Below, in pieces: positions 8,677 to 49,611 of a stretch of 64,000 nucleotides of DNA. The position numbers and the translations under genes were made by a program. Numbering within the stretch: position 1 is the first letter of the stretch; the number at the start of each line of letters is the position of its first letter. Source of the DNA: Mumia xiangluensis (GTDB taxonomy: Bacteria > Actinomycetota > Actinomycetes > Propionibacteriales > Nocardioidaceae); assembly GCF_010994095.1 (NCBI RefSeq), contig NZ_WJYO01000006.1:1-64000 (forward strand). The letters are read 5' to 3'. The notes beneath the pieces were generated by a model. The model saw only the letters and a list, made by a program, of their open reading frames with translations, was not told where the DNA came from and made no database searches.

Positions 8677-11123
<2,447 letters not shown>

Positions 11124-30578: not shown

Positions 30579-30675
30579 CTGTTGTCTCCGCTTCGTCATG
30601 TGAGCGCCCGTGCGGGTGCCCTAACCTCTGCCACCCACTGAGGTGGCGCGATGGTTGTACCCGCAATCGCCTCGC

Positions 30676-32609: not shown

Positions 32610-32615
32610 CCGATG

Positions 32616-33226
32616 TCAACCGGTGACGTCCTCGCCGCGGAAGCGGATCACCGCCTGCGTCCGGTTCTTCACCTGGAGCTTCGCCAAGATGGCGCTGACG
32701 TGGTTGCGAACCGTGACCGGCGAGATCACCAGCGACGCCGCGATCTCGGCATTGGTCATCCCACGAGCCACGCACTCGAGGACCTCACGCTCGCGGCCGG
32801 AGAGCTCGGGCAGGTCTACCTCGTGGGGAGCGAGGAGCCGGGCTGCCAGCCCGGGACCGAGCACCGCGTGGCCGTCCGCCACCGCACGCACGGCGTTGAC
32901 GAGACGGTCGGCGGAACCCCCTTGACCAGGTATCCGTCGGCGCCGGCGCGGATGCACGCCAGAACCGTGGCGTCCTCCTCGGCGAGGGTCAGGACAAGGA
33001 CCCGTGCTCCTAGGCCGAGCAGGTCCGGGAGCGCCGTCGCACCGTCCACGACCGGCATCGCGAGATCGAGGAGGACGACGTCGGGCTTGTGCCTTCGCGC
33101 CTGCGAGAGCGCCTCGCGACCGTCGCTCGCCTCGCCCACGACCGCGATCCCTTCGGCGCGGGCGAGCTCGAACACGACGCCCTCACGGAACCAGGGATGG
33201 TCGTCCACCACGAGCACCCGGATCAT
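32616..33226 (-). pseudogene. NarL/LuxR-type response regulator, frameshifted
   Basis: The start at ATG 33226 overlaps the histidine kinase stop by 4 bases. The first ~105 codons encode a receiver (MIRVLVVDDHPWFREG, VVLLDLAMPVVDG, GADGYLVKG). At a run of five C's (32917-32921; G's on the coding strand) the frame is lost. The downstream frame continues with SADRLVNAVRAVADGHAVLG and a complete LuxR HTH (LSGREREVLECVARGMTNAEIAA through VRNHVSAILAKLQV). One extra G would restore a normal regulator of about 203 residues. It is either a real mutation or an error at the homopolymer. Confidence 0.88.
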
Positions 33227-35193
33227 CGCGGCGCCACCGACGAGTCCCCGTCGGGGAGCACGGCGACGACGGTGAGGCCGCCGCCGGGTGTCGGACACAG
33301 CGCGAGGGTGCCACCGAGCTCAGCCGCCCGCTGACGCATCGAGGTGAGCCCGGTGCCCGCCTCGGTGCCCGACATCCCGGGCCCGGTGTCGCTCACCTCC
33401 AGGACCAACCCGTCGACCTCGTGACGGAGAACCACGTCGACCTGCTCGCTACCGGCGTGCCGTCGGGCATTCAGGATCGCCTCGCACGCGATCCGGTACG
33501 CCGCCACCTCGACCGCAGCGGACAGCAGGGCGGGTCGGTCGCCGGTGACCTGCACCCGGACTCCGAGCGACCGGCCGGCATCGACGAGGGCACCGATGAA
33601 GCCGAGCTCGTCGAGCGCCGGTGGTCGCAGGTCCCGGCTGATCCTGCGGGTCCGTTCCAGTGCGGTCCGGGCCTCTGCCTCGAGGCGCTGGAGCCGCGTG
33701 CTTGCCAGGTCGGAATCGGTGGCGACGAGGGCTGGCAACGATCCGAGCTGCATCGCGAGCCCCGCAAGAATCGGGCCCAGGTCGTCGTGGAGCTCCTGGC
33801 GAAGGCGCGCGCGTTCGTCCTCGCGGCTCGCCACCAACGTCTGGCGCGCCGCTGCCAGGTCGGCTGCCATGCACATCACCCGAGCCGCCCTGGCGCCGTG
33901 CTCCGCGAGGTCGTGGACCAGCTCGCGCTCGCTCGTCCGCAGCGATCGCCCGGGCGCGAGCCCCACGGACAGGCTTCCCGCGTCTCCTTCGCCGCCGTCC
34001 AGCACGACGACCTCGGCGGGGGTGGCCGGCGTGGGCGGCCGGCCGTCGAGCACGGTGCTGCCCCGGAACTCGACGACCACCCACCGCGCACGGACCGACA
34101 ACCGCACCGTGTGCGCGAGGCCCTGGAGGAGCCCGTCGAGATCGTCCGACGTCGCCACTGACGCGCTGAGGCGACGGAGCGCGCGCTGCGGCTCCGAGCC
34201 GTCGCCGTACATCGCCCTGCTCAGCATCCGCTGGAGGAGCGATCGGGCGGGCAGCAGCGCCAACGCGACGCCAGCGGTCAGGAGCGCCGTCAGCTGCTCC
34301 GACGCTCCGACCGCGGTCGACGCAGCGACGAGAGACGCGTAGGCCACGAGAAGCGTCACGGTGAGGAGGCTGTAGACCACGGCGTGCGAGACGACGACCT
34401 GGACGTGGTCGACCCTGCCGCGCAGCACCGCTGCCACGATCGATCCGGTGAGAATCAGCGCACCGGCGAGGTGGAACCACTCAGCGGCAGCGGGCCACAC
34501 CAGGTCGGGAACCGTCAGCATCAGGACGAAGACCACGACCCCGGCCAGAATGCTCACCGCTGGTGCCCGCTCCTGCGGGACTCTGAGGCGGTGGACGACA
34601 GCCGGGAGGCCGAGCACGAAGGGGACGACGAGGACAGGCTCGAGGGCCTCGAAGGCAGTGGCCCAGGTCTCGGGCAACACGCCGATCGGGTTCTCGAGGC
34701 TGCCGCTCGACGGGCTCCCGACGGTCGCGGAACCGCTGACCAGGCACCAGCCGGCGATCACGAGCAGCTGGGCGGCGACCACCGTCGCGACGAGCGGTCG
34801 CCAGCGCACCGACGGCAGCCGTCCGTCAGGGAGGAGCACCACGAGCAGGAACGTCGCAGGGACGATCACGGCGCTGCCGCGATCCACCCACCACGCGGCC
34901 CACGGTGCGCCCCATCCACCGCCCGCCGAGAGCCAGGCGAGGGCCAGAGCGGTCCCACCGAACGCGACGCCGACAAGCACCATCAGCCACCCGACAGGGT
35001 TACGAGGCAGTCGGGCGGCGATGAGGCCTCCGGGAGGCCCGAACACCATCGCGAAGGCCACCGCACCGGAGGCGACCGTCTCGCCCGCACCGATGACGAC
35101 GGCGAGCGCCGCCGAGGCGACCGACGTCGCGGCGAGCGACCATGCGACCCACGAGGGTCGGCGACGCATGGCGGGAGCGGTGCGTGCTCTCAC
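33223..35193 (-). CDS. Membrane sensor histidine kinase (HisKA_3, NarX-like)
   Basis: A 656-residue kinase with about eight N-terminal membrane segments (residues 15-330), a GAF-like stretch, a coiled region, a HisKA_3 domain with the histidine in RARLRQELHDDLGPILAGLA, and an HATPase with ILNARRHAGSEQVDV, VSDTGPGMSG and GTGLTSMRQRAAELGG. GTG 35193 is chosen as it lies 11 bases after the preceding gene; ATG 35169 is an alternative. The partner regulator downstream is frameshifted, which may leave the system without output. Confidence 0.9.
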   Translation of the reverse strand: MRARTAPAMRRRPSWVAWSLAATSVASAALAVVIGAGETVASGAVAFAMVFGPPGGLIAARLPRNPVGWLMVLVGVAFGGTALALAWLSAGGGWGAPWAAWWVDRGSAVIVPATFLLVVLLPDGRLPSVRWRPLVATVVAAQLLVIAGWCLVSGSATVGSPSSGSLENPIGVLPETWATAFEALEPVLVVPFVLGLPAVVHRLRVPQERAPAVSILAGVVVFVLMLTVPDLVWPAAAEWFHLAGALILTGSIVAAVLRGRVDHVQVVVSHAVVYSLLTVTLLVAYASLVAASTAVGASEQLTALLTAGVALALLPARSLLQRMLSRAMYGDGSEPQRALRRLSASVATSDDLDGLLQGLAHTVRLSVRARWVVVEFRGSTVLDGRPPTPATPAEVVVLDGGEGDAGSLSVGLAPGRSLRTSERELVHDLAEHGARAARVMCMAADLAAARQTLVASREDERARLRQELHDDLGPILAGLAMQLGSLPALVATDSDLASTRLQRLEAEARTALERTRRISRDLRPPALDELGFIGALVDAGRSLGVRVQVTGDRPALLSAAVEVAAYRIACEAILNARRHAGSEQVDVVLRHEVDGLVLEVSDTGPGMSGTEAGTGLTSMRQRAAELGGTLALCPTPGGGLTVVAVLPDGDSSVAPR

Positions 35194-35203
35194 GGTCCCA
35201 GTA

Positions 35204-35926
35204 TCACCGGAGCGGGTCGGCAGGCAGCGCGGATTGACCGAGCCACTCCCGCTGAGGCATCCGTGCCACGGCCACCCCGAGCCACACGAGCGCGACGAGG
35301 AGGAGCACATGCGGTTCGACGATCCCGATCGGTGAGAGGGCGAAGTCCCAGACGAGGAAGACGATCAGGAGGACGGCCGGAACCTTGGGGAGCCCAGCCC
35401 GCCAGCAGGCGACGGCGAGCAGGAGCACGCCGAAGAACGAACCGACCAGGTGAGGCACGAGCGATCCAGCCACCATGCCCCAGTCCTTCAGGTAGCCGTC
35501 CTCGACCAGGGTGACGGCAGCGTCGACGCCGAGCACGTCCGGCACGACGACATGAGCGACGTACGTCCCTGCCAGGACGTTGCCGAAGCCCCACATCCCG
35601 AGGACGGTGAGAACGGTCGCGACGGCGGTGAGCCGGGGCGCGCGCCATCGCGTGATCTGTGCGAGGCCGAGGAGGCCGAGCAGGAGGCAGACGCTCGAGA
35701 GCATCACGCCGAACCACACCGCCTGGTAGACGGCGTGGTGCTCGAGTCCCCAGACGAGCAGCTCGCGCCGCTCCGGGTCGCCGGCGAGGAGATGGTCGGC
35801 GTACTGGAGACCGCCGTTGAGAAGACCGCCCAGGATCAGGCAGGTCGCGACTCCGAGCTGGATCGCTCGGGACAGGGGCGGGACGGGGCGTACGGTCCCT
35901 ACGGTGGAGAGCGTGGTGTCGGTCAT
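35204..35926 (-). CDS. Hypothetical multipass membrane protein upstream of a histidine kinase
   Basis: A 240-residue protein with seven or so hydrophobic segments (for instance LGVATCLILGGLLNGGL, GVMLSSVCLLLGLLGLA and VPAVLLIVFLVWDFA). I recognise no named family. It is the first gene of an operon with the histidine kinase and the broken LuxR regulator. A sensory accessory or regulated membrane function is possible but not shown. Confidence 0.75.
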   Translation of the reverse strand: MTDTTLSTVGTVRPVPPLSRAIQLGVATCLILGGLLNGGLQYADHLLAGDPERRELLVWGLEHHAVYQAVWFGVMLSSVCLLLGLLGLAQITRWRAPRLTAVATVLTVLGMWGFGNVLAGTYVAHVVVPDVLGVDAAVTLVEDGYLKDWGMVAGSLVPHLVGSFFGVLLLAVACWRAGLPKVPAVLLIVFLVWDFALSPIGIVEPHVLLLVALVWLGVAVARMPQREWLGQSALPADPLR

Positions 35927-36017
35927 GACACGAGGATCGATGCGCGAGCCGCGCCCGCGCATGGTGCAGATGTCCCAACCGGGGCGGGAAAGATCGACGT
36001 CCCTGCGGCCGGCGACG

Positions 36018-36659
36018 TCAGGTCGTGACGACGGTGCCCTCGAGCTGAGGCGCCGTCGTCCGGAGCTTCCCGCGACGCCAGGCGGTGTGGATCGCGAGCG
36101 CGGCGACGACGCACCCCAGCAGCCCGAGCGTGAGATCGCCCAAGGTGTCCGTGTAGGCGCTGCGGCGCTCGGTGGACTCGCTGATGAAGGCGAAGTACTC
36201 GGCGAGCTCCCACCCGATCGCGGCGGTCGCACCGAAGGCGAGAGCCCGCTCGAGCGTTGCGCCGAGGCCCGCGCTGCGCGGCAGCGTCAGGAGGATCACC
36301 GCAGCCGCGAGGAGGCCGGTGTTCATGAAGTGCATCCAGTCGTCGAACCACACGACGGTGTCGTACAGGTCGATGCGGTTGCCCAGGATGTCCGTGAAGC
36401 AGGTGATCGTGATGAGAAGGTCCGCGAGCCACGGGAAGGACGCGCGCTCGCGCCACCACACGTGCCACACCACCGGGACCGTGAACGCGAGCGCCGGGTA
36501 GGCGACGGCGCGTGCCACGGCGCCCTTGCCCTCGAGGTTGCCGAGCTCAGGGAACGCGAGCGCGGTGCCGAGCATCAGCACCAGCAGGGCCTTGCCTGCG
36601 ATGTCGAGACGTCGCACGAGCGCGGGGGCAGGATGCCGGACAGCGGCGACGTCGGTCAT
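36018..36659 (-). CDS. DUF2238/YjdF-like membrane protein
   Basis: A 213-residue membrane protein with six hydrophobic segments. The motifs VWFDDWMHFMNTG, GWELAEYFAF and YTDTLGDLTLGLLG resemble the DUF2238 (YjdF) family, whose function is unknown. ATG 36659 is chosen because TAGCGT precedes it with a 6-nt gap (36666-36671), fitting a leaderless start; GTG 36665 is also in frame. It ends 92 bases before the preceding operon start on the same strand. Confidence 0.78.
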   Translation of the reverse strand: MTDVAAVRHPAPALVRRLDIAGKALLVLMLGTALAFPELGNLEGKGAVARAVAYPALAFTVPVVWHVWWRERASFPWLADLLITITCFTDILGNRIDLYDTVVWFDDWMHFMNTGLLAAAVILLTLPRSAGLGATLERALAFGATAAIGWELAEYFAFISESTERRSAYTDTLGDLTLGLLGCVVAALAIHTAWRRGKLRTTAPQLEGTVVTT

Positions 36660-36694
36660 GCGCACACGCTAACGGAGGGGTCGGGGCTCTCCGT

Positions 36695-37114
36695 TCACCC
36701 GGTCTGGCCGGAGTCCTTCATCGCACCCCAGCCGTGCCACCGGTCGACCTCGATCCAGGCGCTCACCCGGGCACGGTCACGGTTCGTGTACGCGTGCCCG
36801 GTGTAGTGGGTCGAGAGCCGGTCGATGTCGGCGAGCCCGTCGTCGTCGTACAGCTCGACGACCCGGCCGATCACCGTCAGGTGCGTCGACCAGCCGTCCT
36901 CCGCGAGAGCGGTGAGGCTGACGCGCGGGTCACGGCGGAGGTGCGCGAGGCGTACGCGTCCTTCGTCCATGTTGACCAGCACGCGGCCGTCGTCCCAGAG
37001 GTACCAGGTGGCTGCGGTGACCGGTGAGCCGTCCTTGCGCAGGGTGGCGATGACGGCAGGGTTCGGCCGTCGCAGCATGGTGACGGCCTCGTCCGGCAGC
37101 GGTGGCTTCGACAC
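36695..37114 (-). CDS. PNPOx-like (pyridoxamine 5'-phosphate oxidase family) flavin/F420-binding protein
   Basis: A 139-residue split-barrel protein. The pattern PNPAVIATLRKDGSPVTAATWYLWDDGRVLVNM followed by RVRLAHLRRDPRVSLTALAED is typical of actinobacterial F420- or flavin-dependent PNPOx-like proteins. The GTG start has a GAAGGAG binding site upstream. It is divergent from the P-type ATPase gene. The reaction, probably a reductase or oxidase using F420 or FMN, cannot be specified. Confidence 0.87.
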   Translation of the reverse strand: MSKPPLPDEAVTMLRRPNPAVIATLRKDGSPVTAATWYLWDDGRVLVNMDEGRVRLAHLRRDPRVSLTALAEDGWSTHLTVIGRVVELYDDDGLADIDRLSTHYTGHAYTNRDRARVSAWIEVDRWHGWGAMKDSGQTG

Positions 37115-37271
37115 GGGGACTCCTTCGCTCGAGGGCGGCGGTCACCCGTCACGCTACTGCGCCCACGTCGGGATCGCCTCGCGCCGCGAACCGCGGGAAA
37201 GAGTCCTGCGGCGAGGGTCCCCAGGGCATACGTTCTCTCCGAGGACCTCGCGTCCGCCGAAGGGAGCACCC

Positions 37272-40037
37272 GTGAGCGACGAACCACCACCCCCGTACGC
37301 ACTCACTGCCGAGGAGGCCGTCGCCGCCGGTGGGTCGGACGCCTCCACAGGCCTCACCGCCGCCGAGGCAGCAGCCCGGCTCGCGTCGTACGGGCCCAAC
37401 CAGATCGCTGCCGAGAAACCACCGACCGCCTGGGCGATCGCGGCGCTCCAGCTCCGCGACCCGATGAACATCATGCTCGTCGCGGTCGCCGTCGTCAGCC
37501 TGGTCATCGGCGAGGTCTCGACCGGTGTCGTCGTCGCCTTCCTGATCCTCCTCAACGTCGTGCTCGGGACCCGCCAGGAGCTGACCGCGCGGGCGAGCGT
37601 CGACGCCCTGGCGAAGATCCAGGTCCCGCAGGCACGCGTGGTCCGCGACGGCGAGCAGCGGCTCGTGCCCGCGACCGAGGTGGTCCCCGGAGACGTGCTG
37701 CAGGTCGAGGCCGGCGACATCGTCGCCGCCGACGGCCGCATCCTCCGGTCCGCGACGCTCGAGGCGCAGGAGGCGGCGCTGACCGGCGAGAGCGCGCCGA
37801 TCCCGAAGGATGCGCACGCGCTGCCGTCGGCCGAGGTGCCGCTGGGGGACCGCACGAACATGCTCTTCCAGAACACGTCGGTGACCCGCGGGACCGGGGC
37901 GCTCGTGGTGACCGCCACGGGCATGCAGACGCAGATGGGCCAGATCGCGACGATGCTGACCTCGGTGACCCGCAGCCGGTCGCCGCTGCAGAAGGAGCTC
38001 GACGCGCTGACGAAGGTGCTCGGCCTCGTCGCCTGGGGGGCGGTGGCGATCATCGTGGTCGTCGGTCTCCTCCGCGGCATCCCGGGGAAGGACCTCCTGC
38101 TGCTGGGGACGGCGATGGCGATCTCCGCGATCCCGACCGGCATGCCCGCCTTCGTGTCGGGCCTGCTGTCGCTCGGAGCGAAGCAGCTCGCGGAGGCGAA
38201 GGCGGTCGTGAAGAACCTCACCGACGTCGAGACCCTCGGCGCCACCAGCGCGATCAACACCGACAAGACCGGCACCCTCACGCTCAACCAGATGATGGTG
38301 TCGATGCTGTACGCGTCCGGCGAGTGGTTCACCGTCGAGGGCGAGGGCTACCGCAAGACGGGAGAGATCCGTGCCGTCGCCGGTGCGCCGGCCCCGGACT
38401 TCACCAGGCTCGGGCTGGGTCTCGTCCTGGACAGCGACGCCGTGGTCGGCGACGACCAGACGGTGATCGGAGACCCGACCGAGGCGGCACTCGTCGTCCT
38501 CGCCGCGAAGCTGGGGATCGACGCCGAGGAGACCCGGCGTGCGTACCCGCGGCTGGCCGAGGTCCCGTTCGACTCCGACTACAAGTTCATGGCGACGTTC
38601 CACCGCGTCCACGTCGACGGCGCCGAGCACGTGATGGCGCTCGTGAAAGGTGGGCCGGACGTCGTCCTCGCCCGATGCAGCAGCGCCGGCGGGCCGCTGA
38701 GCAGATCGGTCGTCCCCATCGCGGAGGCGGAGGCGGGGATCGACGCCGCGAACGAGCGGATGGGCGAGAAGGGGCTGCGCGTCCTCGCGTTCGCCGCAAG
38801 GATCATCGACGATGCCGACCTGCAGCGGATGACCGACGACCCGATGTCGCTCGTGACGGATCTGGGCTTCGTGGCGCTCGCCGGCATCATCGACCCGCTG
38901 CGCGCCGAGGCCAAGGACGCCGTACGCGTCGCGCTGACCGCCGGCATCGACGTACGCATGATCACCGGCGACCACGCCGTGACCGCACGGGCGATCGGCG
39001 AGGATCTCGGCCTAGGCGCCGGAGCGATCAGCGGTACGGAGCTCCAGGCGATGACCGACACCGAGCTGAAGGAGCGCCTCCCGCAGCTGCACGTCTTCGG
39101 GCGCGTGACCCCGGAGGACAAGCTGCGGCTCGCCCGCGCGATGCAGGAGGAGGGCCTCATCGTCGCGATGACCGGCGACGCGGTGAACGACGCCGCCGCC
39201 CTCAAGCAGGCCGACATCGGCGTGGCGATGGGTAGCGGCAGCGAGGTCACGAAGCAGGCCGGGCGGATGATCCTCACCGACGACAACTTCGGCACGCTCG
39301 TCCATGCCGTCGAGATCGGGCGGCGCGCGTACGACAAGGTGGTCGCCTACGTGCGGTTCCAGATGACCCAGCTGCTCGGGCTCGTCCTCCTGTTCCTTGC
39401 CGCGACCGTGTTCGACATCAACGACGGCGTCGCCATGCAGCCGACCATGGTGCTGTTCCTGCTGTTCTTCGCGACCGCCGTCGGTGTCGTCGTGATCGCG
39501 GTCGACCCGGGCGATCCCGACGTGATGCACCGCCCACCACGCGACCCCGCGCTGACGATCTCCAACCGCAAGGCTGTGATCCAGTGGCTCGTGTACGCCG
39601 CTGCGCTGTTCGTCGCCGGACTCATTCCTCTCGTCGCCGGCCCCGACGAGCCGCGTACGGACGCCGCGTCGGTGTCGATGACGATGACGTTCGTCGTGAT
39701 GGGTCTCGGGACGGCCTTCAACGCGGTCGTGAACCGGCGCGACCCGGCGAGCGGCCTCGAGCCGCCGGTCCTGAAGGCTGTGGGCATCGCGTCCGTGACG
39801 TTCGTGGCGGTGCTGCTCGCGACCGAGCTGCCGACCTTGCGCGAGGGCCTGGGGACGACGCCGCTGACGCCGAGGGAGTGGCTCGTCTGCTTCGGTCTCG
39901 CTGCGCTGCTCCCGCTGGTCGTCGAGGTCGGCAAGCTCGTACGACGTCGGCGTGAGGGCCCGTCCTCGCTCCTCGCGGCGGACGCGGCGGTGGCTCCGGA
40001 GCGGGCTCAGTCCGCGGTGGTGAGCGGGTCGCGCTGA
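37272..40037 (+). CDS. P-type cation ATPase with atypical ion-binding helices
   Basis: A 921-residue P2-like ATPase. It has an N-terminal cation-ATPase domain (TAAEAAARLASYGPNQIA), an actuator domain with LTGESAPIPKD (about residue 171), the phosphorylation motif NTDKTGTLTLNQM (about 330), MITGDHAVTARAIG and a hinge reading TGDAVNDAAALKQADIGVAMG (about 634). The M4 motif is PTGMPAFVSG where Ca2+ pumps have PEGLP, and the M6 region (PTMVLFLLFFATAVGVVVIAVD) lacks the usual NLVTD. Both remove expected cation ligands, so the ion is uncertain. GTG 37272 follows AAGGGA. It shares one base with the next gene. Confidence 0.92.
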   Translation: MSDEPPPPYALTAEEAVAAGGSDASTGLTAAEAAARLASYGPNQIAAEKPPTAWAIAALQLRDPMNIMLVAVAVVSLVIGEVSTGVVVAFLILLNVVLGTRQELTARASVDALAKIQVPQARVVRDGEQRLVPATEVVPGDVLQVEAGDIVAADGRILRSATLEAQEAALTGESAPIPKDAHALPSAEVPLGDRTNMLFQNTSVTRGTGALVVTATGMQTQMGQIATMLTSVTRSRSPLQKELDALTKVLGLVAWGAVAIIVVVGLLRGIPGKDLLLLGTAMAISAIPTGMPAFVSGLLSLGAKQLAEAKAVVKNLTDVETLGATSAINTDKTGTLTLNQMMVSMLYASGEWFTVEGEGYRKTGEIRAVAGAPAPDFTRLGLGLVLDSDAVVGDDQTVIGDPTEAALVVLAAKLGIDAEETRRAYPRLAEVPFDSDYKFMATFHRVHVDGAEHVMALVKGGPDVVLARCSSAGGPLSRSVVPIAEAEAGIDAANERMGEKGLRVLAFAARIIDDADLQRMTDDPMSLVTDLGFVALAGIIDPLRAEAKDAVRVALTAGIDVRMITGDHAVTARAIGEDLGLGAGAISGTELQAMTDTELKERLPQLHVFGRVTPEDKLRLARAMQEEGLIVAMTGDAVNDAAALKQADIGVAMGSGSEVTKQAGRMILTDDNFGTLVHAVEIGRRAYDKVVAYVRFQMTQLLGLVLLFLAATVFDINDGVAMQPTMVLFLLFFATAVGVVVIAVDPGDPDVMHRPPRDPALTISNRKAVIQWLVYAAALFVAGLIPLVAGPDEPRTDAASVSMTMTFVVMGLGTAFNAVVNRRDPASGLEPPVLKAVGIASVTFVAVLLATELPTLREGLGTTPLTPREWLVCFGLAALLPLVVEVGKLVRRRREGPSSLLAADAAVAPERAQSAVVSGSR

Positions 40038-41698
40038 TGGCCAAGCCCACCATCGTGACCGTCGACGACGACGAGAGCGTGTCCACCGCGATCGCTCGCG
40101 ACCTGCGGACCCGATACGGCGACGACTACCGCGTCGTGCGGGCGACGTCGGGAGCCGGAGGTCTCGACGTCCTGCGCCGGCTCGCGCGCCGTGGTCAGCC
40201 GGTCGCGCTTGTCGCCGCCGACGAGCGGATGCCCGGAATGACAGGCATCCAGATGCTCTCGCAGGTGCGTGAGTACGCGCCGACCGCGAAGCTGCTGCTG
40301 CTCACCGCATACGCCGACATGGACGCCGCGATCGCCGGGATCAACGACATCGGGCTCGACCAGTTCCTCCTGAAACCATGGGACCCACCCCAGGAACGGC
40401 TCTATCCGGCGGTCGACGAGCTCCTCGACGACTGGCTGCGCGCCAACCCCGACCACACGAGCGACATCCGCGTGGTCGGGCACCGGTGGTCGGACCGCAC
40501 GCACGACATCAAGACCTTCCTCGCGCGCAACCACATCCCGTACCACTGGTACGACGTCGAGGACGACGCCGACGAGGCCGCCCGGCTGCTCGGGCTGGGC
40601 GGCGCGGCGGTCGCCGACGTGCCGGTCGTCCTGACGCCGGAGGGCGTGACGCTGCGCTCGCCGTCGACGTACGACCTGGCGACAGCGCTCGGCCTTCGCA
40701 CCCAGGCGGAGCAGCCCGTGTACGACCTCGCGATCGTCGGTGCCGGTCCGGCAGGTCTGGCGGCCGCCGTGTACGCGGCGTCCGAGGGACTCAGCACCGT
40801 CGTCATCGAGGGCGAGGCGCCTGGCGGACAGGCGGGTCAGAGCGCGGCGATCGAGAACTACCTCGGGTTCCCGCGCGGCCTGACCGGCGGGGATCTCGCG
40901 CAGCGCGCCATCGCCCAGGTGGGCCGCTTCGGTGCCGAGCTCGTGGTGGCGCGCGACGTCGTCGGCCTCGAGCGCCGCGGACCTGTGCGCGCGCTGACGC
41001 TCGCGGGCGGCGGTTCCGTCGAGGCGCGCGCGATCGTCGTCGCGACCGGCATGTCGTACCGGCTCCTGCCCGCGAAGGGCGTCCCGGACCTCACCGGGAG
41101 GGGTCTCTACTACGGCGTCGGGGCAGGGGAGGCGTCGCAGTGCGAGGGCGATGTCGTGCACGTCGTCGGTGCCGCCAACTCCGCGGGCCAGGCGGTGCTC
41201 AACCTCGCCCGGTACGCGAAACGGGTGGTCGTCCTGGCGCGCGGCACATCGCTCGACGACTCGATGTCGCGCTACCTCGTCGAGCGGATCGAGGCCGCAC
41301 CGAACGTCGAGGTCCGGTATCGCGCCGAGGTGCTCGAGGTGAAAGGAGAGGGCCACGTCGAGTCGCTCGTCATCGGCGACCGCGACACCGGGGACCGCGA
41401 GGTGGTGGCGAGCAGCTGGCTGTTCGTGTTCATCGGCGCCACGCCGCACACCGACTGGCTCGGCGGCGAGGTCGTCCGCGACGACGAGGGCTATCTGCTG
41501 ACGGGGCGATGGTTGCAGCGCGACGAGGAGTCACGCGGGTGGCCGCTCGCCCGTGCCCCGTACGCACTCGAGACCAGCGTCCCAGGCGTGTTCGCCGCCG
41601 GCGACGCGCGCCACGACTCGATGAAGCGGGTCGCCTCGGCGGTCGGCGAGGGCGCGATGGCCGTCGCGCTCGTGCACCGCTACCTGGCGGCGACGTGA
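40037..41698 (+). CDS. Receiver-thioredoxin reductase-like flavoprotein fusion
   Basis: A 553-residue fusion. Residues 1-125 are a receiver with D62 in ADERMPGMTG and the lysine in FLLKPWD. Residues 150-215 look like a thioredoxin-fold insert. From about 225 on there is a thioredoxin reductase-like FAD/NADP fold (LAIVGAGPAGLAAAVYAASEG, GGQAGQSAAIENYLGFP, VVGAANSAGQAVLNLARYA, VFAAGDARHDSMKRVASAVGEGA). Where TrxR has CxxC, this reads YGVGAGEASQCEG with a single cysteine, so it cannot perform the usual disulfide relay. It is coupled to the ATPase gene before and the kinase gene after. Confidence 0.9.
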   Translation: MAKPTIVTVDDDESVSTAIARDLRTRYGDDYRVVRATSGAGGLDVLRRLARRGQPVALVAADERMPGMTGIQMLSQVREYAPTAKLLLLTAYADMDAAIAGINDIGLDQFLLKPWDPPQERLYPAVDELLDDWLRANPDHTSDIRVVGHRWSDRTHDIKTFLARNHIPYHWYDVEDDADEAARLLGLGGAAVADVPVVLTPEGVTLRSPSTYDLATALGLRTQAEQPVYDLAIVGAGPAGLAAAVYAASEGLSTVVIEGEAPGGQAGQSAAIENYLGFPRGLTGGDLAQRAIAQVGRFGAELVVARDVVGLERRGPVRALTLAGGGSVEARAIVVATGMSYRLLPAKGVPDLTGRGLYYGVGAGEASQCEGDVVHVVGAANSAGQAVLNLARYAKRVVVLARGTSLDDSMSRYLVERIEAAPNVEVRYRAEVLEVKGEGHVESLVIGDRDTGDREVVASSWLFVFIGATPHTDWLGGEVVRDDEGYLLTGRWLQRDEESRGWPLARAPYALETSVPGVFAAGDARHDSMKRVASAVGEGAMAVALVHRYLAAT

Positions 41699-43080
41699 TC
41701 ACCGTCGATGACCTGCGCGCCCTCCCGTTGTTCGACGGGATGCGCGACGACCAGCTGGCCGACCTCGTCGCCGTCGGTGAGGAGGTCGCGATCGAGCCCG
41801 GCGCGGAGCTCTTCCACGAGGGCGACGATGCCGACGCCTGGTGGCTGCTCATCGACGGCGCGCTCGATCTCCTGCGCCACGTGGGGCGGGAGGACACCGT
41901 TGTACGCCAGATGGACCAGCCCGGGCAGTGGGCGGGCGGGTTCCGGGCGTGGGACGAGCACGGCCGCTACCTCGCCTCCGGACGTGGGGCGCGGCCCGGA
42001 CGGCTCCTGCGGGTGCCGGCTCCGGCGCTGCGGGACCTGTCCCAGGAGTGGTTCCCGTTCGCGGTGCGCCTCATCGAAGGCCTGTACAGCACCGCCCGGA
42101 GCATCGAGTCGACCGTCAGGCAGCGCGAGTCGCTCGTCACGCTCGGCACGCTCGCAGCGGGGCTCGCCCACGAGATCAACAATCCCGCGGCTGCCGCCGT
42201 ACGCGCCGTCGACGCCCTCGAGACGTCCGCCTCGAACGTCCTCGCCTCGGTCGGTGGGCTCGCCGACCAGCAGGTCTCCTCCCAGGACGTCGCCACCCTC
42301 GAGGCGCTGCGACGGGAGATCACACCCCTCGGGGCGGGTGCTGACCCGATCGACCTCGCCGACACCGAGGAGGCGCTCACCGACTGGCTCGAGGCGCACG
42401 ACGTCGAGCGGAGATGGCGGCTCGCGACGACGCTGGCTGCTGCGGGCGCCGACGTCGCGTGGTGCGAGCGGGTCGCGGGATCCGTGGCGCCGTCCGCACT
42501 CGGGCCCGGCATCGCCTGGCTCGCGGCCACCGCCGAGACGGCTCAGCTGCTGAACGAGGTGAAGGTCGCGACGGGTCGTGTCTCTGCTCTGGTCAAGGCG
42601 GTGAAGTCCTACTCGCAGGTCGACCGCGGCGAGACGCGAGCGATCGACGTCACCGAGGGCATCGAGAGCAGCCTGCTCGTGCTCGGTCACCAGCTGCGCG
42701 CCGGCGTCGTCGTGACACGGGACTTCGCGGCCGACCTCCCGACGATCGAGGCGAACGCCGGCGAGCTCAACCAGGTCTGGACGAACCTCGTCGACAACGC
42801 CGTCGATGCGATGGACGGCGCCGGGAGTCTGCGGATCTCCACCCGCGCCACGGACGACGGCGGCGTCGAGGTGGCGGTCGCGGACTCGGGACCGGGCGCA
42901 CCGGAGGCGGTGCTCGCGCGGGCCTTCGACGCGTTCTACACGACGAAGGACGTCGGCAAGGGGACCGGCCTCGGCCTCGACATCGCGCGGCGGATCGTGG
43001 AGGAGCGCCACCGGGGGACGATCGCGCTGGTGCGCGAGGGCGACGAGACGGTGGCACGGGTGACCCTGCCGCCACGGTGA
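41695..43080 (+). CDS. Cyclic nucleotide-binding-domain histidine kinase
   Basis: A 461-residue soluble kinase. Residues 1-125 form a cNMP-type effector domain (LFDGMRDDQLADLVAVGEE, LFHEGDDADAWWLLIDGALDLL). A helical region with the probable phospho-histidine in AAGLAHEINNPAAAAVRAV follows. The HATPase has VWTNLVDNAVDAMDG, ADSGPGAPEAV and GTGLGLDIARRIV. GTG 41695 overlaps the flavoprotein stop (GTGA). It is the natural kinase for the receiver of the preceding fusion protein. No membrane segment is present, so the input is cytosolic. Confidence 0.9.
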   Translation: MITVDDLRALPLFDGMRDDQLADLVAVGEEVAIEPGAELFHEGDDADAWWLLIDGALDLLRHVGREDTVVRQMDQPGQWAGGFRAWDEHGRYLASGRGARPGRLLRVPAPALRDLSQEWFPFAVRLIEGLYSTARSIESTVRQRESLVTLGTLAAGLAHEINNPAAAAVRAVDALETSASNVLASVGGLADQQVSSQDVATLEALRREITPLGAGADPIDLADTEEALTDWLEAHDVERRWRLATTLAAAGADVAWCERVAGSVAPSALGPGIAWLAATAETAQLLNEVKVATGRVSALVKAVKSYSQVDRGETRAIDVTEGIESSLLVLGHQLRAGVVVTRDFAADLPTIEANAGELNQVWTNLVDNAVDAMDGAGSLRISTRATDDGGVEVAVADSGPGAPEAVLARAFDAFYTTKDVGKGTGLGLDIARRIVEERHRGTIALVREGDETVARVTLPPR

Positions 43081-43127
43081 CGCGGCCTCGACCGCTTCGC
43101 GCCTCGACCTTCGAGGGCGGGGCGGAG

Positions 43128-44531
43128 TCAGCGCGGAGTCAGGTCGGCGGGTGAGGCCAGGCGTCCGGCGACGGCGGTCGCCGCCGCGACGAGCGGCGAC
43201 ACGAGGTGGGTGCGCCCGCCCTTGCCCTGCCGGCCCTCGAAGTTGCGGTTGGACGTCGAGGCGCTGCGCTCCCCGGGGGCGAGCCGGTCGGCGTTGAGCC
43301 CCTGGCACATCGAGCAGCCCGCGCCACGCCACTCGCCACCCGCCGCGGTGAACACCCGGTCGAGCCCCTCCGCCTCCGCCTCCAGCCGGATGCGGGTGGA
43401 GCCGGGGACCACGAGGAGGCGGGTCCCGTCGGCGACCCGGCGCCCGTCCAGGACGGCGGCCGCGGCGCGCAGGTCCTCGAGCCGGCCGTTGGTGCACGAG
43501 CCCACGAACACCGTGTCGATCACGATGTCCCTCAACGGCGTGCCCGCTGCCAGGCCCATGTAGTCGAGCGCGCGAGCGGCAGCCGCCTGCGCGGCGGCGT
43601 CGGCGAAGTCGCCGGGGGAGGGCACGACGGACCCGAGGGGTACGCCGTGCGCGGGGTTGGTGCCCCACGTGACGAAGGGCGTCAGCTCGGAGGCGTCCAC
43701 GACGATCTCGCGGTCGAAGACTGCCCCGTCGTCGGTCCTGAGCGTCCGCCAGTAGGCGAGCGCCGACGCCCACGCCTCGCCGCTCGGGGCCTCGGGACGA
43801 CCGCGGAGGTAGGCGAACGTGGTCTCGTCGGGGGCGATCATCCCCGCCTTCGCGCCCCACTCGATCGACATGTTGCACAGCGTCATCCGCGCCTCCATCG
43901 AGAGCGCCTCGACGACCGGGCCCCGGTACTCGACGACGTAGCCCTGCCCGCCGCCGGTGCCGGTGCGGGCGATGAGACCGAGGGCGAGGTCCTTCGCGGT
44001 GACCCCCGGCGGCAGTGCACCAGTCACGGTCACGGCCATCGTCCGCGGGCGGGCCTGGGGCACGGTCTGAGTGGCCAGCACGTGCTCGACCTCGCTCGTG
44101 CCGATGCCGAAGGCGAGCGCCCCGAACGCGCCGTGGGTCGAGGTGTGGGAGTCGCCGCAGACGATCGTCATGCCCGGCTGGGAGAGTCCGAGCTGGGGGC
44201 CGACGACGTGCACGATGCCCTGCTCGACGTCGCCCATCGGGTGGAGGCGTACGCCGAAGTCGGCGCAGTTGCGGCGCAGGGTCTCGACCTGCGTCCGTGA
44301 CAGCAGGTCGGCGATGGGCTTGTCGAGGTCGTGCGTCGGGACGTTGTGGTCCTCCGTGGCCAGCGTCAGGTCGGGACGTCGGACCGGCCGTCCTGCGAGC
44401 CGCAGGCCCTCGAACGCCTGCGGGGACGTGACCTCGTGGAGGAGGTGGAGATCGACGTAGAGCAGGTCGGGCTCCTCGCCCTCGCCGCGTCGTACGACGT
44501 GCTCGTCCCACAGCTTCTCGCTCAAGGTCAT
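43128..44531 (-). CDS. leuC: 3-isopropylmalate dehydratase large subunit (orphan)
   Basis: LeuC with LeuD isomerises 2- to 3-isopropylmalate in leucine synthesis. The protein has 467 residues. The 4Fe-4S ligands are in [13 protein letters not shown] and [14 protein letters not shown], and substrate loops [21 protein letters not shown] and [13 protein letters not shown] are conserved. ATG 44531 is chosen because a good promoter lies just upstream. No leuD lies next to it: the flanking gene downstream is a convergent kinase. The small subunit must be elsewhere, or this is a second large-subunit copy for a related hydro-lyase. Confidence 0.92.
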
Positions 44532-44546
44532 CGCCACGGACGCGAG

Positions 44547-44576
44547 AATATACGATCCGTCGCGAGCGGTTGTCAG
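44547..44576 (-). promoter_or_regulatory. Sigma-70-type promoter of leuC
   Basis: Read on the minus strand, CTGACA (44571-44576) and TATATT (44547-44552) are spaced by 18 bases. This is the best consensus promoter in the window. It leaves a leader of about 8 bases before the leuC ATG. Confidence 0.7.
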
Positions 44577-45211
44577 ACGAGCTTCGGGAAAGACAGCAGG
44601 ATCCCGCTGAGGATGATGCATCCCACGATGCCGAGGCCGAGGAGTGCCCACTGGCTGCGCGGATCGCGCATCCGTCCGGAGAGAGCTCCGAAGAAGAGCA
44701 CGACCGCGAACGCGATCGTCATCATCGTGTAGTTGTCGCCACGCTGGTTGTTGCGCAGCGCCTCGCGGAACTTCGCGTCAGCACGACCGTCGGCCGCTGC
44801 GGACTCGGTGGCCTCCGGGATCACGTACCCGGGCATCTCGAACGGGCTGGCGGGCGCCGACGGGTCCTGGAGCGGCCGGCTCGCCAGCCACTCCGGGAAC
44901 ACCGTCGCGAGCGGCTCGGGAAAGCGCTCCTGCAGGAAGGCGGTGAGCGTCTGGTCGTCGTCCTGGTAGGCCGCGAGCCACTGCGTGAACAGGCCGACCT
45001 GGATGGTCTGGCGGCGGTTGGCGTCCGCATCCAGGCGGGCGGCCTCGATCCGAGCCGACGACGCCTGGCTGAACGAGATCGACATCGCGCCGCCCCACTT
45101 GCTCGCCTGGAAGCCGGTCCACGCGGTGAGGATGGCGGTGACGGAGAGGAGGAGCACGGTGACGAGCTCACGCCAGTCGGTGCGATCGTGCGTCGCTGCC
45201 CTCGCATCCAT
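44573..45211 (-). CDS. Hypothetical membrane protein, three predicted TM segments
   Basis: A 212-residue protein. One TM segment is near the N-terminus ([21 protein letters not shown]) and two are at the C-terminus ([17 protein letters not shown] and [21 protein letters not shown]), with a 110-residue hydrophilic loop rich in alanine and charged residues between them. I do not recognise the family with confidence. It lies 20 bases after the broken alpha/beta hydrolase gene and before leuC on the same strand. Confidence 0.72.
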
Positions 45212-45231
45212 GCTCGGAGTATGTCCGAGCC

Positions 45232-46066
45232 TCACGCCGTCCGCTGGCCCACGGCGTCGTCGAGCCAGCGGCGGAGCTCCGTCGCCAGCGCCACCGGAGC
45301 GTCGAGCTGGATGAGGTGCCCGGCGTCCGGGACGACGGTCACCGTGCTCCCGGGGATCGCCGCGTGGAGCCGCTCCGCGCGGTCGGGCGGGATCCAGGTG
45401 TCCTCGGCTCCCCACACGATGTGCGTCGGGGCTGCAACGTCGCCCAGGAGCGGCTCGAGGTCGGCCGTGAAGCGCTCGTCGGCCTGGGCGATCTGGCGGT
45501 AGAACGCGGCCTGGCCGATGGGACCGAGCCAGGGGTCGGTGAGCATCGCCAGCGCTTCCGGCGTCAGTCCGACCTGACTGGCGGTCGCGACGTACGCCTC
45601 GAGCGCTCCACGGTGGACGGCCGCAGGCAGCTGGGCGAACACGTCGGCGTGCTCCTTGACCAGTCGGAAGAAGGGCGAGCCCCACGGGCGCAGCGCCACG
45701 ACGTCGACCAGGCAGAGGGACCCGTACGGCACGCCGTGCAGGAGGTGCCCGCGCAGCGCCACGGCGCCCCCGAAGTCGTGCGCGACGACGTGCGGGCGGT
45801 TCGAGGCTCCAGTGCTGGAGCAGCGCGGCGAAGACCTCGCCCTGAACGCCGAGGTCGACGGCGTGCCCGGCGTCCTTCGACGATGCGCCGTAGCCCGGCA
45901 TGTCCCACAGGTGCACCGTGAAGTCGGCCGCGAGCGCGTCGGCGTACGGCCGCCAGAGCGACGAGGACCAAGGCGTCCCGTGGCACATCACCACCGGCGG
46001 TCCGCTTCCGGCAGTACGCCAGGCGATCCGCCGTCCCTGCCACGAGAACTCTCCGTCGCGTCTCAT
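45232..46066 (-). pseudogene. Alpha/beta hydrolase, frameshifted
   Basis: The first ~90 codons from ATG 46066 encode a normal alpha/beta hydrolase N-terminus (RIAWRTAGSGPPVVMCHGTPWSS, VHLWDMPGYGASSKD, FAALLQHWSLEPP). Near 45794-45796 (GGG on the plus strand) the frame is lost. The second frame continues with HVVAHDFGGAVALRGHLLHG, which has an aspartate nucleophile as in haloalkane dehalogenase-like enzymes, and runs to PDAGHLIQLDAPVALATELRRWL with the catalytic histidine. Removing one base restores a protein of about 277 residues. The ATG overlaps the stop of the WYL regulator gene, so the two form an operon. Confidence 0.85.
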
Positions 46067-47031
46067 TCCTCGAGTCTGTCAAGCGCGTGCGCCGCGCGCG
46101 CGTACCTCCCGCTGATCCGACGGAACGCGGCCGCCAGCTCGGGAGGCCCGTCGACGGTGAAGTCGGCGTCGAGCAGGCCGATCCACAGGGCGAGCTGGTC
46201 AGGGGAGTCCGATCCCACGTGCGCGACGCAGCGCGTCGCGTCGACCTCCTCGACGATCACCGCCGGGGGCACCCGGGCGATGATGTCCGCCGCGGGTGCG
46301 TCGACGTACGCACGTGCCCTGACCTGCCAGGTCGCCGTGCCGACCGAGCGCTCGACGAAGCCGATCAGATCGCCCTCGGGCTCGTCGCGGGGGACGAAAC
46401 GTGGCCCGTTGGGGGTGCGGAGACGCATCCTGTCGACCCGGAACGTCCGCCACGCGTGCCGCTCGACGTCCCATGCGGCGAGGTACCAGCGGCCGCGGGT
46501 GTGCACCAGCCGGTGCGGCTCGGCCGTACGGCGGGTGGAGGTGCCGTCACCCGCCTCGTAGCTGAACCGCACACCCTCGCGGCAGCGGACGGCGTCGGCG
46601 ATGGCGGTGAGCCGCTCGACCGGGACGGCGGAGCACTCCGTCGGCATCGCCACCGTGGCAGCGACGAGGTCCTCGAGGCGGTGGCGCAGCGGAGCGGGAA
46701 GGGACTGCTCGAGCTTGACGAGTGCGCGCAGCGCCGTCTCCTCGAACCCGGCGACGCCGGCAGCCGCCGTCCGCAGCCCGATCGCGACCGCGAGCGCCTC
46801 CTCGTCGTCGAGCAGCAGCGGCGGGATCGCGGCGCCGTGACCGAGGCGGTAGCCGCCCGCGACGCCCGGCGCTGCCTCCACGGGATAGCCGAGGCTGCGC
46901 AGCCTCCCGACGTCGCTGCGGATCGTGCGGGTGCTGACCTCGAGCCGCTCGGCCAGCGCGGGGCCGTTCCAGTCACGCTGCGACTGCAGCAGGGACAGGA
47001 GGCGGAGCAGGCGTGCCGACGTCGAGAGCAC
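46063..47031 (-). CDS. WYL-domain transcriptional regulator
   Basis: A 322-residue DeoR-like HTH and WYL regulator. The HTH is STSARLLRLLSLLQSQRDWNGPALAERLEVSTRTIRSDVGRL, followed by a WYL domain (TRGRWYLAAWDVERHAWRTFRVDRM). GTG 47031 is chosen as it begins directly before the HTH; a codon at 47073 would add 14 atypical residues and overlap the divergent promoter. It is divergent from an epoxide hydrolase gene and overlaps the broken hydrolase gene downstream, so it may control both. Confidence 0.9.
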   Translation of the reverse strand: MLSTSARLLRLLSLLQSQRDWNGPALAERLEVSTRTIRSDVGRLRSLGYPVEAAPGVAGGYRLGHGAAIPPLLLDDEEALAVAIGLRTAAAGVAGFEETALRALVKLEQSLPAPLRHRLEDLVAATVAMPTECSAVPVERLTAIADAVRCREGVRFSYEAGDGTSTRRTAEPHRLVHTRGRWYLAAWDVERHAWRTFRVDRMRLRTPNGPRFVPRDEPEGDLIGFVERSVGTATWQVRARAYVDAPAADIIARVPPAVIVEEVDATRCVAHVGSDSPDQLALWIGLLDADFTVDGPPELAAAFRRISGRYARAAHALDRLEE

Positions 47032-47053
47032 CCCACCATCCTGCCTCGGATCG

Positions 47054-47070
47054 CGGAAGCAAGCCTTCCG
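47054..47070. promoter_or_regulatory. Inverted repeat between WYL regulator and epoxide hydrolase genes
   Basis: CGGAAG-CAAGC-CTTCCG is a 6-bp inverted repeat. It sits 10 bases before the TACGGT -10 element of the epoxide hydrolase gene. It is a candidate operator for the divergent WYL regulator. Confidence 0.4.
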
Positions 47071-47092
47071 CAAGGCCTCCTACGGTCGCGAC

Positions 47093-48289
47093 ATGGACGA
47101 CAACACAGCAATCCGGCCGTACCGTCTCGACATCCCGCAGAGCGACCTCGACGACCTCCACGACAGGCTGAGGCGTACGCGGTGGCCCGACTTCTCGGCG
47201 GGCTCCGACTGGAGCAGGGGAGTGCCGCCCGACTACCTCCACGGGCTCGCCGACTACTGGCTCGACGGCTTTGACTGGCGGGCCCAGGAGGCCCGGCTCA
47301 ACGAGATCCCGCAGTTCGTCACGACCGTCGACGGGCAGGACGTGCACTTCTTCCACGTGCGCGCGGCCGAGCCCGGCGCGATGCCGCTGGTGCTGACGCA
47401 CGGCTGGCCGAGCTCCTCTGTCGAGTTCCTCCAAGTGATCGGCCCGCTGACCGACCCCAAGGCCTCGGGCGGCGAGTCCGCGGACGCGTTCGACGTCGTC
47501 GTGCCGACGCTGCCCGGCTACGGCTTGTCCACACCGTTCCACGCGGGGTGGGGCAACCTCTTCCAGGTCGCGCAGGCGTGGACGGAGCTCATGCGGCGCC
47601 TCGGCTACGACCGCTACGGCCTGCAGGCGACCGATGCTGGCGCCGGCGTCGCCGGGATGGTCGCGATGGTCGCTCCCCAGCAGGTCATCGGCATGCACCT
47701 GACCGGCACGGCCGCGGGGACGCCGTTCGGGCCACCCCTGGACCCCGACGACTTCGAGGGTGAGGACCGCGACCGCATCGTACGGTTCAACGAGTACCGC
47801 GACGACGGTCTCGGCTACTTCCAGCTGCAGGCGACGCGGCCGCAGACGATCGCGTACGCGTTGACCGACTCGCCCGTGGGCCAGCTCGCGTGGATCGTCG
47901 AGAAGTTCCACGAGTGGACCGATCCCGCCGTGGAGCTGCCCGACGAGGCCGTCGACCGTGACCAACTCCTCACGAACGTGTCGTTGAGCTGGTTCCGGCA
48001 GGCGGGTGCCACGTCGGCGCACGGCACCTACGAGGGCATCCAGGCGTGGAAGCAGATGATGGCGCAGGCCGGGGACTCGGGTCACGGATCCGAGGGGTGG
48101 GAGTCGCCCGAGGCGCCGCCCACCGGGTACGCGGTGTTCGCGGCAGACACCACGGTGCGCTCGCTCGCCGACCCGGCAGGGGAGATCGCGCACTGGTCGA
48201 ACTTCGACCGCGGCGGACACTTCCCCGCGATGGAGGTGCCGGACCTGTGGGTCGACGACGTCCGGGAGTTCTACCGGCCGTTGCGCTGA
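47093..48289 (+). CDS. Epoxide hydrolase (EHN-domain family)
   Basis: A 398-residue epoxide hydrolase of the microsomal-like family. The N-terminal EHN domain (IRPYRLDIPQSDLDDLHDRLRRTRWPD) is followed by the alpha/beta hydrolase fold with oxyanion HGWPSSSVEFLQ, nucleophile aspartate in LQATDAGAGVAGMV and late histidine in DRGGHFPAMEVPD. ATG 47093 is preceded by TACGGT with a 6-nt gap (47081-47086), suggesting a leaderless message. The nucleophile elbow DAG differs slightly from the common DWG. Natural substrate unknown. Confidence 0.9.
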   Translation: MDDNTAIRPYRLDIPQSDLDDLHDRLRRTRWPDFSAGSDWSRGVPPDYLHGLADYWLDGFDWRAQEARLNEIPQFVTTVDGQDVHFFHVRAAEPGAMPLVLTHGWPSSSVEFLQVIGPLTDPKASGGESADAFDVVVPTLPGYGLSTPFHAGWGNLFQVAQAWTELMRRLGYDRYGLQATDAGAGVAGMVAMVAPQQVIGMHLTGTAAGTPFGPPLDPDDFEGEDRDRIVRFNEYRDDGLGYFQLQATRPQTIAYALTDSPVGQLAWIVEKFHEWTDPAVELPDEAVDRDQLLTNVSLSWFRQAGATSAHGTYEGIQAWKQMMAQAGDSGHGSEGWESPEAPPTGYAVFAADTTVRSLADPAGEIAHWSNFDRGGHFPAMEVPDLWVDDVREFYRPLR

Positions 48290-48296
48290 GGACACG

Positions 48297-49061: not shown

Positions 49062-49071
49062 GGTCCGCAAT

Positions 49072-49524
49072 CTACGACGTGTGCTGTGCCGTTGCCTCGG
49101 TCCTTGCCTGCGTCCTTGCCGCCAGGATCTCGAGGTAGTGCGGGTTGGACATGATCCCGAGGATGTTGCCGAACGGGTCGACCACGGACGCCGTCACGAA
49201 CCCGGAGTCGTCGCCCTGCTCGGTGACCGGGAGGTGGAGCGTGGCGCCGAGGGCGAGAAGCCGGTCGAGCGAGGCCTGCAGGTCGTCGACGTGCCAGTAG
49301 GCGACGACGCCGCCCGGCTGGTCAGGACGGTCGGCGGGGGCGTACCGGCTGTCGATGATCCCGAGCTCGTGCTCGTAGTCGCCGATCCGGAACTCGACGT
49401 ACGCCGGGGTGCCCTCGGCGGGAAAGGCGTAGTACGCGTCGATGCCGAGAACCTCGGCGTACCAGGATCGCGCGGCGGTGAGGTCGTCGGCGTAGAAGCT
49501 GAGGGTGGTCAGTCCGCGAAGCAT
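49072..49524 (-). CDS. VOC superfamily (glyoxalase/dioxygenase-fold) protein
   Basis: A 150-residue vicinal-oxygen-chelate fold protein with two beta-alpha-beta-beta-beta halves. Key segments are LTTLSFYADDLTAARSWYAEVLG, YVEFRIGDYEHELGIID and TASVVDPFGNILGIMSNPHY. A GAGGAA binding site precedes the ATG. It is divergent from a WYL regulator with an 87-base gap full of inverted repeats, and is probably its target. Metal and substrate are not predictable. Confidence 0.87.
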   Translation of the reverse strand: MLRGLTTLSFYADDLTAARSWYAEVLGIDAYYAFPAEGTPAYVEFRIGDYEHELGIIDSRYAPADRPDQPGGVVAYWHVDDLQASLDRLLALGATLHLPVTEQGDDSGFVTASVVDPFGNILGIMSNPHYLEILAARTQARTEATAQHTS

Positions 49525-49543
49525 GTCGTGTTCCTCTCGTGGG

Positions 49544-49593: not shown

Positions 49594-49611
49594 CTTTGCG
49601 AGACTCGGGAC

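Follow-up and report, generated by a model that had tools for sequence, protein, structure and literature searches.

A receiver-flavoprotein without dithiol motifs and a cyclic nucleotide-binding-fold histidine kinase as a conserved gene pair

Three overlapping genes and their products

We analyzed a 64,000-nucleotide stretch of the Mumia xiangluensis genome (assembly GCF_010994095.1, 4.6 Mb; contig NZ_WJYO01000006.1), referred to here as the window, which has a GC content of ∼71%. Three same-strand genes in it encode a P-type ATPase, a receiver domain fused to a thioredoxin reductase-like flavoprotein, and a soluble histidine kinase with a cyclic nucleotide-binding (CNB) fold (Table 1). The last two form a conserved two-gene unit that is found in several phyla, while the ATPase looks like a local neighbor. 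The open reading frames agree with a preliminary description of this DNA in overlapping by 1 to 4 bases: the ATPase/flavoprotein junction, TGATG, is a 1-base overlap and the flavoprotein/kinase junction, GTGA, a 4-base overlap. In agreement with that description, Pfam assigned Cation_ATPase and E1-E2_ATPase to the first protein, Response_reg and Pyr_redox_2 to the second, and cNMP_binding and HATPase_c to the third. In NCBIfam, only the generic P-type ATPase model was above its cut-off among the matches listed (the ATPase's full 24 and the top 25 each for the flavoprotein, of 114, and the kinase, of 74), and PADLOC gave no defense-system match for any of the three proteins.

Table 1. Features of the three-gene locus, with positions in the window
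Feature	Positions	Strand	Basis or remark
P-type ATPase, type II, 921 aa	37272-40037	+	GTG start; open reading frame and Pfam
Receiver-flavoprotein, 553 aa (receiver, glutaredoxin-fold domain, thioredoxin reductase-like core)	40037-41698	+	ATG start
Receiver domain, residues 1-120	40037-40396	+	D10/D11, T90, K113 present
Predicted phospho-acceptor D62	codon 40220-40222	+	Receiver column comparison
Putative glutaredoxin-fold domain, residues 145-220	40469-40696	+	Element order in AlphaFold2 model; S152/T155 at CxxC place; P196
Thioredoxin reductase-like FAD/NAD(P)H core, residues 228-552	40718-41692	+	No CxxC; C369 near that site
Soluble CNB-fold histidine kinase, 461 aa	41695-43080	+	GTG start
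CNB-fold sensor domain, residues 1-118	41695-42048	+	Usual phosphate-binding Glu and Arg for cyclic nucleotides absent
DHp-type long helices, residues 120-191 and 266-311	42052-42627	+	Model; H159 codon 42169-42171
Helical insert between DHp-like helices, ∼70 residues, 196-263	42280-42483	+	Model alone
HATPase_c catalytic domain, residues 314-460	42634-43074	+	N, D-x-G, and G-x-G boxes

The receiver matched PF00072 with 53 bits (cut-off, 30.2), and D10, D11, D62, T90, and K113 are all there. The same five residues are present in all 57 receivers of an alignment that joins the flavoprotein under study to 56 of the 80 loci from a named-locus scan (the best 80 of 590 matches), with L135 left out. 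In the AlphaFold2 model of the flavoprotein, which has a mean predicted local distance difference test (pLDDT) score of 88.8, residues 145 to 220 have their elements arranged strand-helix-strand-helix-strand-strand-helix, as in a glutaredoxin fold, a probable domain that had been overlooked in the preliminary description. The Pfam Glutaredoxin family (PF00462) matched 7 of the 57 relatives, with a best E-value of 6.4e-6, and the flavoprotein under study was unmatched at an E-value of 0.01 or 0.1. At the place of the CxxC motif in this domain, S152 is found in 54 of the 57 sequences and a serine at position 155 in 46, with P196 in all of them. The corresponding site of the thioredoxin reductase-like core mostly reads YYGAA-T/S-EA..C, with C369 present in 51/57, and no CxxC occurs anywhere in the flavoprotein under study. 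The description of a receiver fused to a thioredoxin reductase-like flavoprotein without its CxxC is correct, and the claim that the receiver has no DNA-binding output is supported, the output attached to it being an enzyme-like flavoprotein.

Among 178 cores of all forms, including those with decayed receivers described below, none has a CxxC at the thioredoxin reductase site, and four have one elsewhere. G263, Q265, N381, S382, Q385, and D523 are found in 178/178 and R402 in 175/178. With the nucleotide motifs kept and the CxxC gone, the flavoprotein looks to have retained the use of flavin adenine dinucleotide (FAD) and a pyridine nucleotide and to have lost dithiol chemistry. If the receiver controlled just oligomerization or localization, or were a phosphate sink, the flavin core could be catalytically idle, and both the loss of the two CxxC sites and the survival of R402 as the only conserved one among the NADPH arginines of thioredoxin reductase would agree with such a role. 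The residues kept in all or nearly all cores argue instead for continued FAD and pyridine-nucleotide use, and we regard an idle core as very improbable.

The kinase matched cNMP_binding, the Pfam family for cyclic nucleoside monophosphate (cNMP) binding, with 27.7 bits (cut-off, 27.5) and HATPase_c with 78.8 bits, while HisKA remained under its cut-off. Its AlphaFold2 model has a mean pLDDT of 88.7. We aligned it with 46 relatives, and Pfam matched cNMP_binding and HATPase_c in all 47 kinases. H159, N162, N163, and P164 are invariant in this set, as are the ATP-site residues N364/N368, D397-x-G399, and G421/G423/G425, so that the boxes of a histidine kinase are present. In the predicted helical insert, which lies between the dimerization and histidine phosphotransfer (DHp)-like helices, E225 is fully conserved, and D223, W231, and W241 are nearly so.

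The preliminary description had also proposed a cyclic-nucleotide-type sensor. The CNB fold of that proposal holds, but the residues that usually bind the nucleotide phosphate are mostly missing. With the usual cNMP phosphate-cassette motif mapped onto the kinase, the cassette Glu is found in 8 of the 47 kinases, the kinase under study has G82 and A94 at the cassette positions, and none of the 46 residues listed for the expected Arg column is an Arg. We therefore did not favor cyclic AMP (cAMP) sensing by the kinase, and canonical cAMP binding by its CNB-fold domain is doubtful judging from these residues. Three points tell the other way. An Arg at position 97, present in 34/47, could stand in for the cassette residue, so that the residue mapping is not proof. 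In the CNB-fused forms of the flavoprotein described below, the cassette Glu was present in 10 of the 12 displayed and was an Asp in the other 2. Finally, the adenylate cyclase beside some of the forms with decayed receivers leaves room for a link to nucleotides.

The closest solved structure to the ATPase is the Listeria Ca2+-ATPase (6zhf), aligned over residues 25 to 892. In this alignment, "IPEA" of M4 becomes "IPTG" and "NLVND" of M6 is not retained, both being ion-site motifs. The score against the Ca2+-transporting model TIGR01522 was 495.5 bits, below the curated cut-off of 798.3. The ATPase is thus atypical, as had been noted, resembling the Listeria enzyme as its best structural-database match and differing from it in both motifs.

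The kinase-flavoprotein pair and the state of the receiver

Relatives of the flavoprotein at E <= 1e-70 were found in 88 of 396 genomes from the phylum and in 37 of 61 from the family Nocardioidaceae, counting all forms and the source genome. From these searches we took all 24 close orthologs (61 to 72% identity), termed window-type here, and part of the other forms. The kinase directly follows the flavoprotein in 24/24 window-type loci (L043 is cut by a contig end). In a larger set of 123 loci, 99 have it as the next gene downstream on the same strand, and 113 have it no more than 5 kb away; L051 is the same locus as L082, and L083 overlaps L052, so that both pairs are counted twice here and among the 119 intact receivers below. 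The pair was observed in Actinomycetota, Cyanobacteriota, Acidobacteriota, and Chloroflexota, and three Bacteroidota loci have the kinase upstream. The 80 named loci add Cyanobacteriota, Acidobacteriota, Chloroflexota, Thermomicrobiota, and Bacteroidota. In two loci (L073 and L075), two CNB-kinases stand in tandem behind a single receiver-flavoprotein.

In 97 intact pairs, the distances between kinases correlated with those between receivers (r = 0.87) and between flavin cores (r = 0.92), the best of 999 shuffles reaching 0.21, and the receiver-kinase correlation given the core was 0.38. The kinase and the receiver-flavoprotein, described before as partners, are thus a co-inherited pair, and the conserved unit is one of two genes. 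We read this pair, with some reserve, as a probable two-component system whose output is an enzyme: the kinase would switch the flavoprotein directly.

To sort 183 loci by profile searches, we called a receiver intact when it had residues 10, 11, 62, 90, and 113, and the presence of these five in the intact class is therefore no finding. An adjacent same-strand kinase accompanies 104 of the 119 intact receivers, 4 of these kinases being upstream. The 48 decayed receivers comprise 25 scored as decayed, 18 gapped at key sites, and 5 without a recognizable receiver in the open frame (including L214, which has an internal stop), and a same-strand kinase adjoins only 2 of them (L135 and L210). In 13 further loci, a CNB domain is fused in the receiver's place, and none has an adjacent kinase. 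The remaining three are two window-type flavoprotein genes that are split and have a kinase (L047 and L064) and one locus placed by the tree with the CNB forms (L174); the split genes and L214 were kept unmended. In a FastTree phylogeny of the core, the CNB forms clustered in one group and the decayed forms, except for L135, in a second. This tree held 119 sequences, omitting every second intact-receiver row as well as L047, L064, L071, L082, L083, L092, L103, L176, and L214. Receiver integrity therefore goes with the presence of a kinase at the level of clades, and the sister proteins that carry a CNB domain where the receiver would be mark the N terminus as an input slot.

In 11 of the 48 decayed-receiver loci, the core is followed 56 to 165 bp downstream, in the same orientation, by a gene resembling the L010 cyclase (E <= 1e-145; 60 to 86% identity besides L010 itself). 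The L010 cyclase is an adenylate/guanylate cyclase by Pfam, and all eleven loci come from the set of Nocardioidaceae, the family of the source genome. In these loci (L010 at 7214-10370, L187-L190, L207-L209, and L213-L215), the cyclase is of class III and has a membrane-like N-terminal part. The source genome itself has three such flavoproteins: the one under study, a paralog at C1:471414 (52%) that is followed by a CNB-kinase of its own, and another at C2:199630 (41%) with a class III cyclase next to it and no kinase in the 18 kb examined.

The decayed forms raise a second reading, in which information flows the other way: the flavoprotein would be a redox sensor, and its NAD(P)H/FAD state would pass through the receiver to the kinase or, in the decayed clade, to the adenylate cyclase. 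A decayed receiver should not take phosphate, yet the flavin core behind it is intact and is followed in those eleven loci by the cyclase-like gene, and loss of the dithiols is as compatible with a sensor as with an enzyme. On the other hand, the kinase has a sensor-like CNB-fold domain of its own, the receiver beside it keeps the full residue set for phosphotransfer, and the cyclase link was seen in one clade, with all eleven loci from a single family. We consider this reversed flow possible but rather unlikely and prefer the kinase-to-flavoprotein direction.

Neighboring genes and the place of the ATPase

A third recurrent neighbor is a zf-UBP zinc-finger sequence. It occurs no more than 5 kb from the core in 28 of the 119 intact-receiver loci, directly following the kinase in the same orientation in 23 of these, and in 8 of the 13 CNB-fused loci. 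None was found in a control of 40 hand-picked 20-kb stretches (0.80 Mb) from 20 actinomycete genomes of the same sets, a control that is wholly actinomycete whereas the test loci include other phyla. It was found neither in the tested part of the window (32001-50000) nor in any of the 24 window-type loci and so is not part of this locus's own unit. The single zf-UBP found in the source genome lies ∼30 kb away from the C1 paralog and next to genes that we read as NhaA-like and DsbA-like. Near two receiver-flavoprotein loci, zf-UBP forms the C terminus of a CPA2-type antiporter (L066, 11042-13111; L159, 3634-5772); Pfam, applied to L066, also found TrkA_N there.

Searching for four kinds of ion transporter with one query each, we found 6 in 1.53 Mb around the 119 intact-receiver loci and 2 in the control (one CPA1 and one NhaA), which is no clear enrichment. 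The six are the ATPase under study, the ATPase of L065, CPA1 in L009 and L073, and CPA2 in L066 and L159; L171 and L174, which are CNB-type loci, each have an NhaA. The ATPase itself was found in 0/24 window-type loci, 20 of them with 1 kb or more of upstream sequence, and adjoins the pair in 1/123 neighborhoods (112 with at least 1 kb upstream), namely, the locus under study. Its nearest ortholog in the 61 family genomes (62%) is in G413, where no flavoprotein match was found at E <= 1e-70. Weaker relatives (45%) are found in G402, G406, and G450, and the one in G402 shares a contig with one of that genome's flavoproteins at a distance of ∼33 kb.

The preliminary description had proposed that kinase, flavoprotein, and pump form one system, with the relay controlling the ATPase by contact or shared expression and so tying redox state to ion export. 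The 1-base and 4-base overlaps agree with this, as do the CPA1-type Na+/H+ exchanger 79 bp upstream of the C1:471414 paralog, the fusion to CPA2 antiporters of zf-UBP, a recurrent neighbor of related loci, and a 45% ATPase ∼5 kb upstream in L065, with opposite-strand genes between. We found no linkage of the ATPase to the pair outside the source genome as far as we looked, a result that the preliminary description had itself named as refuting the proposal. The nearest ATPase ortholog sits in a genome without a flavoprotein match, transporters are not clearly enriched over the control, and zf-UBP is missing from the window-type loci, so that a three-part system appears improbable. From the ortholog neighborhoods and control stretches, we rejected the ion-pump partnership as a conserved link. 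The exchanger beside the paralog and the two antiporter fusions are no more than suggestive. At most, the ATPase gene would have been recruited at this locus and be coupled to the pair in translation.

Several flavoprotein genes stand beside a cluster that we read as ribosomal-protein/rpoA-like. This neighborhood is common to the intact-receiver clade (L067, L074, L077, L124, and L140) and the decayed-receiver clade (e.g., L182 and L193).

Around the three genes, the ATPase gene is flanked by a divergent PNPOx_N-family gene (36695-37114) and the kinase gene by a convergent aconitase-family gene (43128-44651). Further upstream, 33223-35310 (− strand) encodes a HisKA_3-type histidine kinase whose N-terminal half reads as membrane-like, and 25878-30666 holds a Sigma-70-type factor (+), a CHASE3-HAMP histidine kinase (−), and a receiver-SpoIIE phosphatase (−), with an apparent single-receiver open reading frame between them, a set that looks to be of the general-stress type.

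A proposed enzyme switch and its relation to known systems

Under the two-component reading, the soluble kinase would sense an intracellular cue through its CNB-fold domain, probably not by the usual cAMP binding, and autophosphorylate at H159, from which the phosphate would pass to D62 of the receiver. The receiver would act as a regulatory slot ahead of the glutaredoxin-fold lobe and the thioredoxin reductase-like core, both dithiol-free, and its phosphorylation may alter the coupling between slot and core and thereby set how electrons pass from NAD(P)H to an acceptor other than a disulfide. More tentatively, the family as a whole could be built around a dithiol-free NAD(P)H-flavoprotein that serves as a redox signaling hub with interchangeable N-terminal inputs: a receiver served by a kinase, a fused CNB domain, or a decayed receiver that is paired with a cyclase in one clade. 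Loci with either of the first two inputs often have zf-UBP nearby, but those of the subgroup to which the flavoprotein under study belongs do not. We hold this broader picture to be possible and rather less secure than the two-component reading of the pair.

Several observations weigh against the two-component reading. An adjacent same-strand kinase is missing from 15 of the 119 intact-receiver loci. Contig ends cut three of these (L043, L092, and L103), nine are cyanobacterial with ample sequence, and the others are L104, L120, and L155. L135 has D62V and yet has a kinase, and it groups with the intact clade. Receiver integrity changes about twice on the tree, so that its association with the kinase compares one clade with another, and the independent-pairs test (2 pairs, p = 1) is powerless and cannot support it. 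The correlated distances are equally expected from plain co-inheritance, and the locus sets were chosen by likeness to the flavoprotein under study. C369, moreover, is not invariant, being present in 106/117 intact-receiver forms and 3/47 decayed ones.

Many response regulators act on DNA. The pair described here would instead be a phospho-switch on a flavoenzyme without the dithiol chemistry from which its fold takes its name, with cofactor motifs that are retained across several phyla. If so, "thioredoxin reductase" and "cyclic nucleotide-binding" would be misleading names for the family. The exchange of a receiver for a CNB domain before the same core would be a natural swap with which to probe how the enzyme is switched, and, if the hub picture is also true, phosphate and nucleotide-type signals would be alternative switches of one flavoenzyme.

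The fusion itself is already known, and NCBI has the product name "fused response regulator/thioredoxin-disulfide reductase." Receiver-thioredoxin reductase fusions appear in a census of archaeal two-component systems as a "Mycobacterium-like combination" (PMC5847659), and they share with the flavoprotein under study the receiver joined to a thioredoxin reductase, classed there with response regulators that have predicted enzymatic domains. At least in its passages on these fusions, that census does not mention the glutaredoxin-fold domain, the dithiol loss, a partner kinase, the CNB-fused form, or the cyclase link. In a literature search made mainly by title and abstract opening, we found no functional study of the flavoprotein family and no account of the interchangeable inputs or the zf-UBP neighbor.

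The top three Foldseek matches of the flavoprotein model by E-value were to AhpF (4o5q, 4xvg, and 1hyu), over 560 to 612 alignment columns. TM-scores were low for both whole models, the flavoprotein and the kinase; against AhpF, the flavoprotein model gave 0.36 to 0.40, with a root-mean-square deviation of 20 to 27 Å, so that the domain order agrees and the arrangement does not. In AhpF, a thioredoxin-fold lobe precedes the thioredoxin reductase core, each with a CxxC, and electrons pass through the dithiols. The flavoprotein here has neither CxxC and begins with a receiver, and it scored 151.5 bits against TIGR03140 (cut-off, 502.9). Thioredoxin reductase (TIGR01292) has the same FAD/NAD(P)H core and matched with 202.7 bits, which is under the curated cut-off of 343.45; the flavoprotein differs from it in having no CxxC and one NADPH arginine left. 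The kinase's sensor domain is like the CRP/FNR-type domains (PF00027) in its Pfam match throughout the 47 kinases and unlike them in the rarity of the cassette Glu (8/47) and in having no Arg among the 46 residues listed for the expected column, although 34/47 have an Arg at position 97. Finally, the thioredoxin reductase-like ferredoxin-NADP reductases (e.g., 3ab1 and 3lzw) gave profile matches to the core, weaker in sequence than those of thioredoxin reductase and confined to that core. These enzymes work without a dithiol, and by analogy a dithiol-free chemistry like theirs is possible for the flavoprotein.

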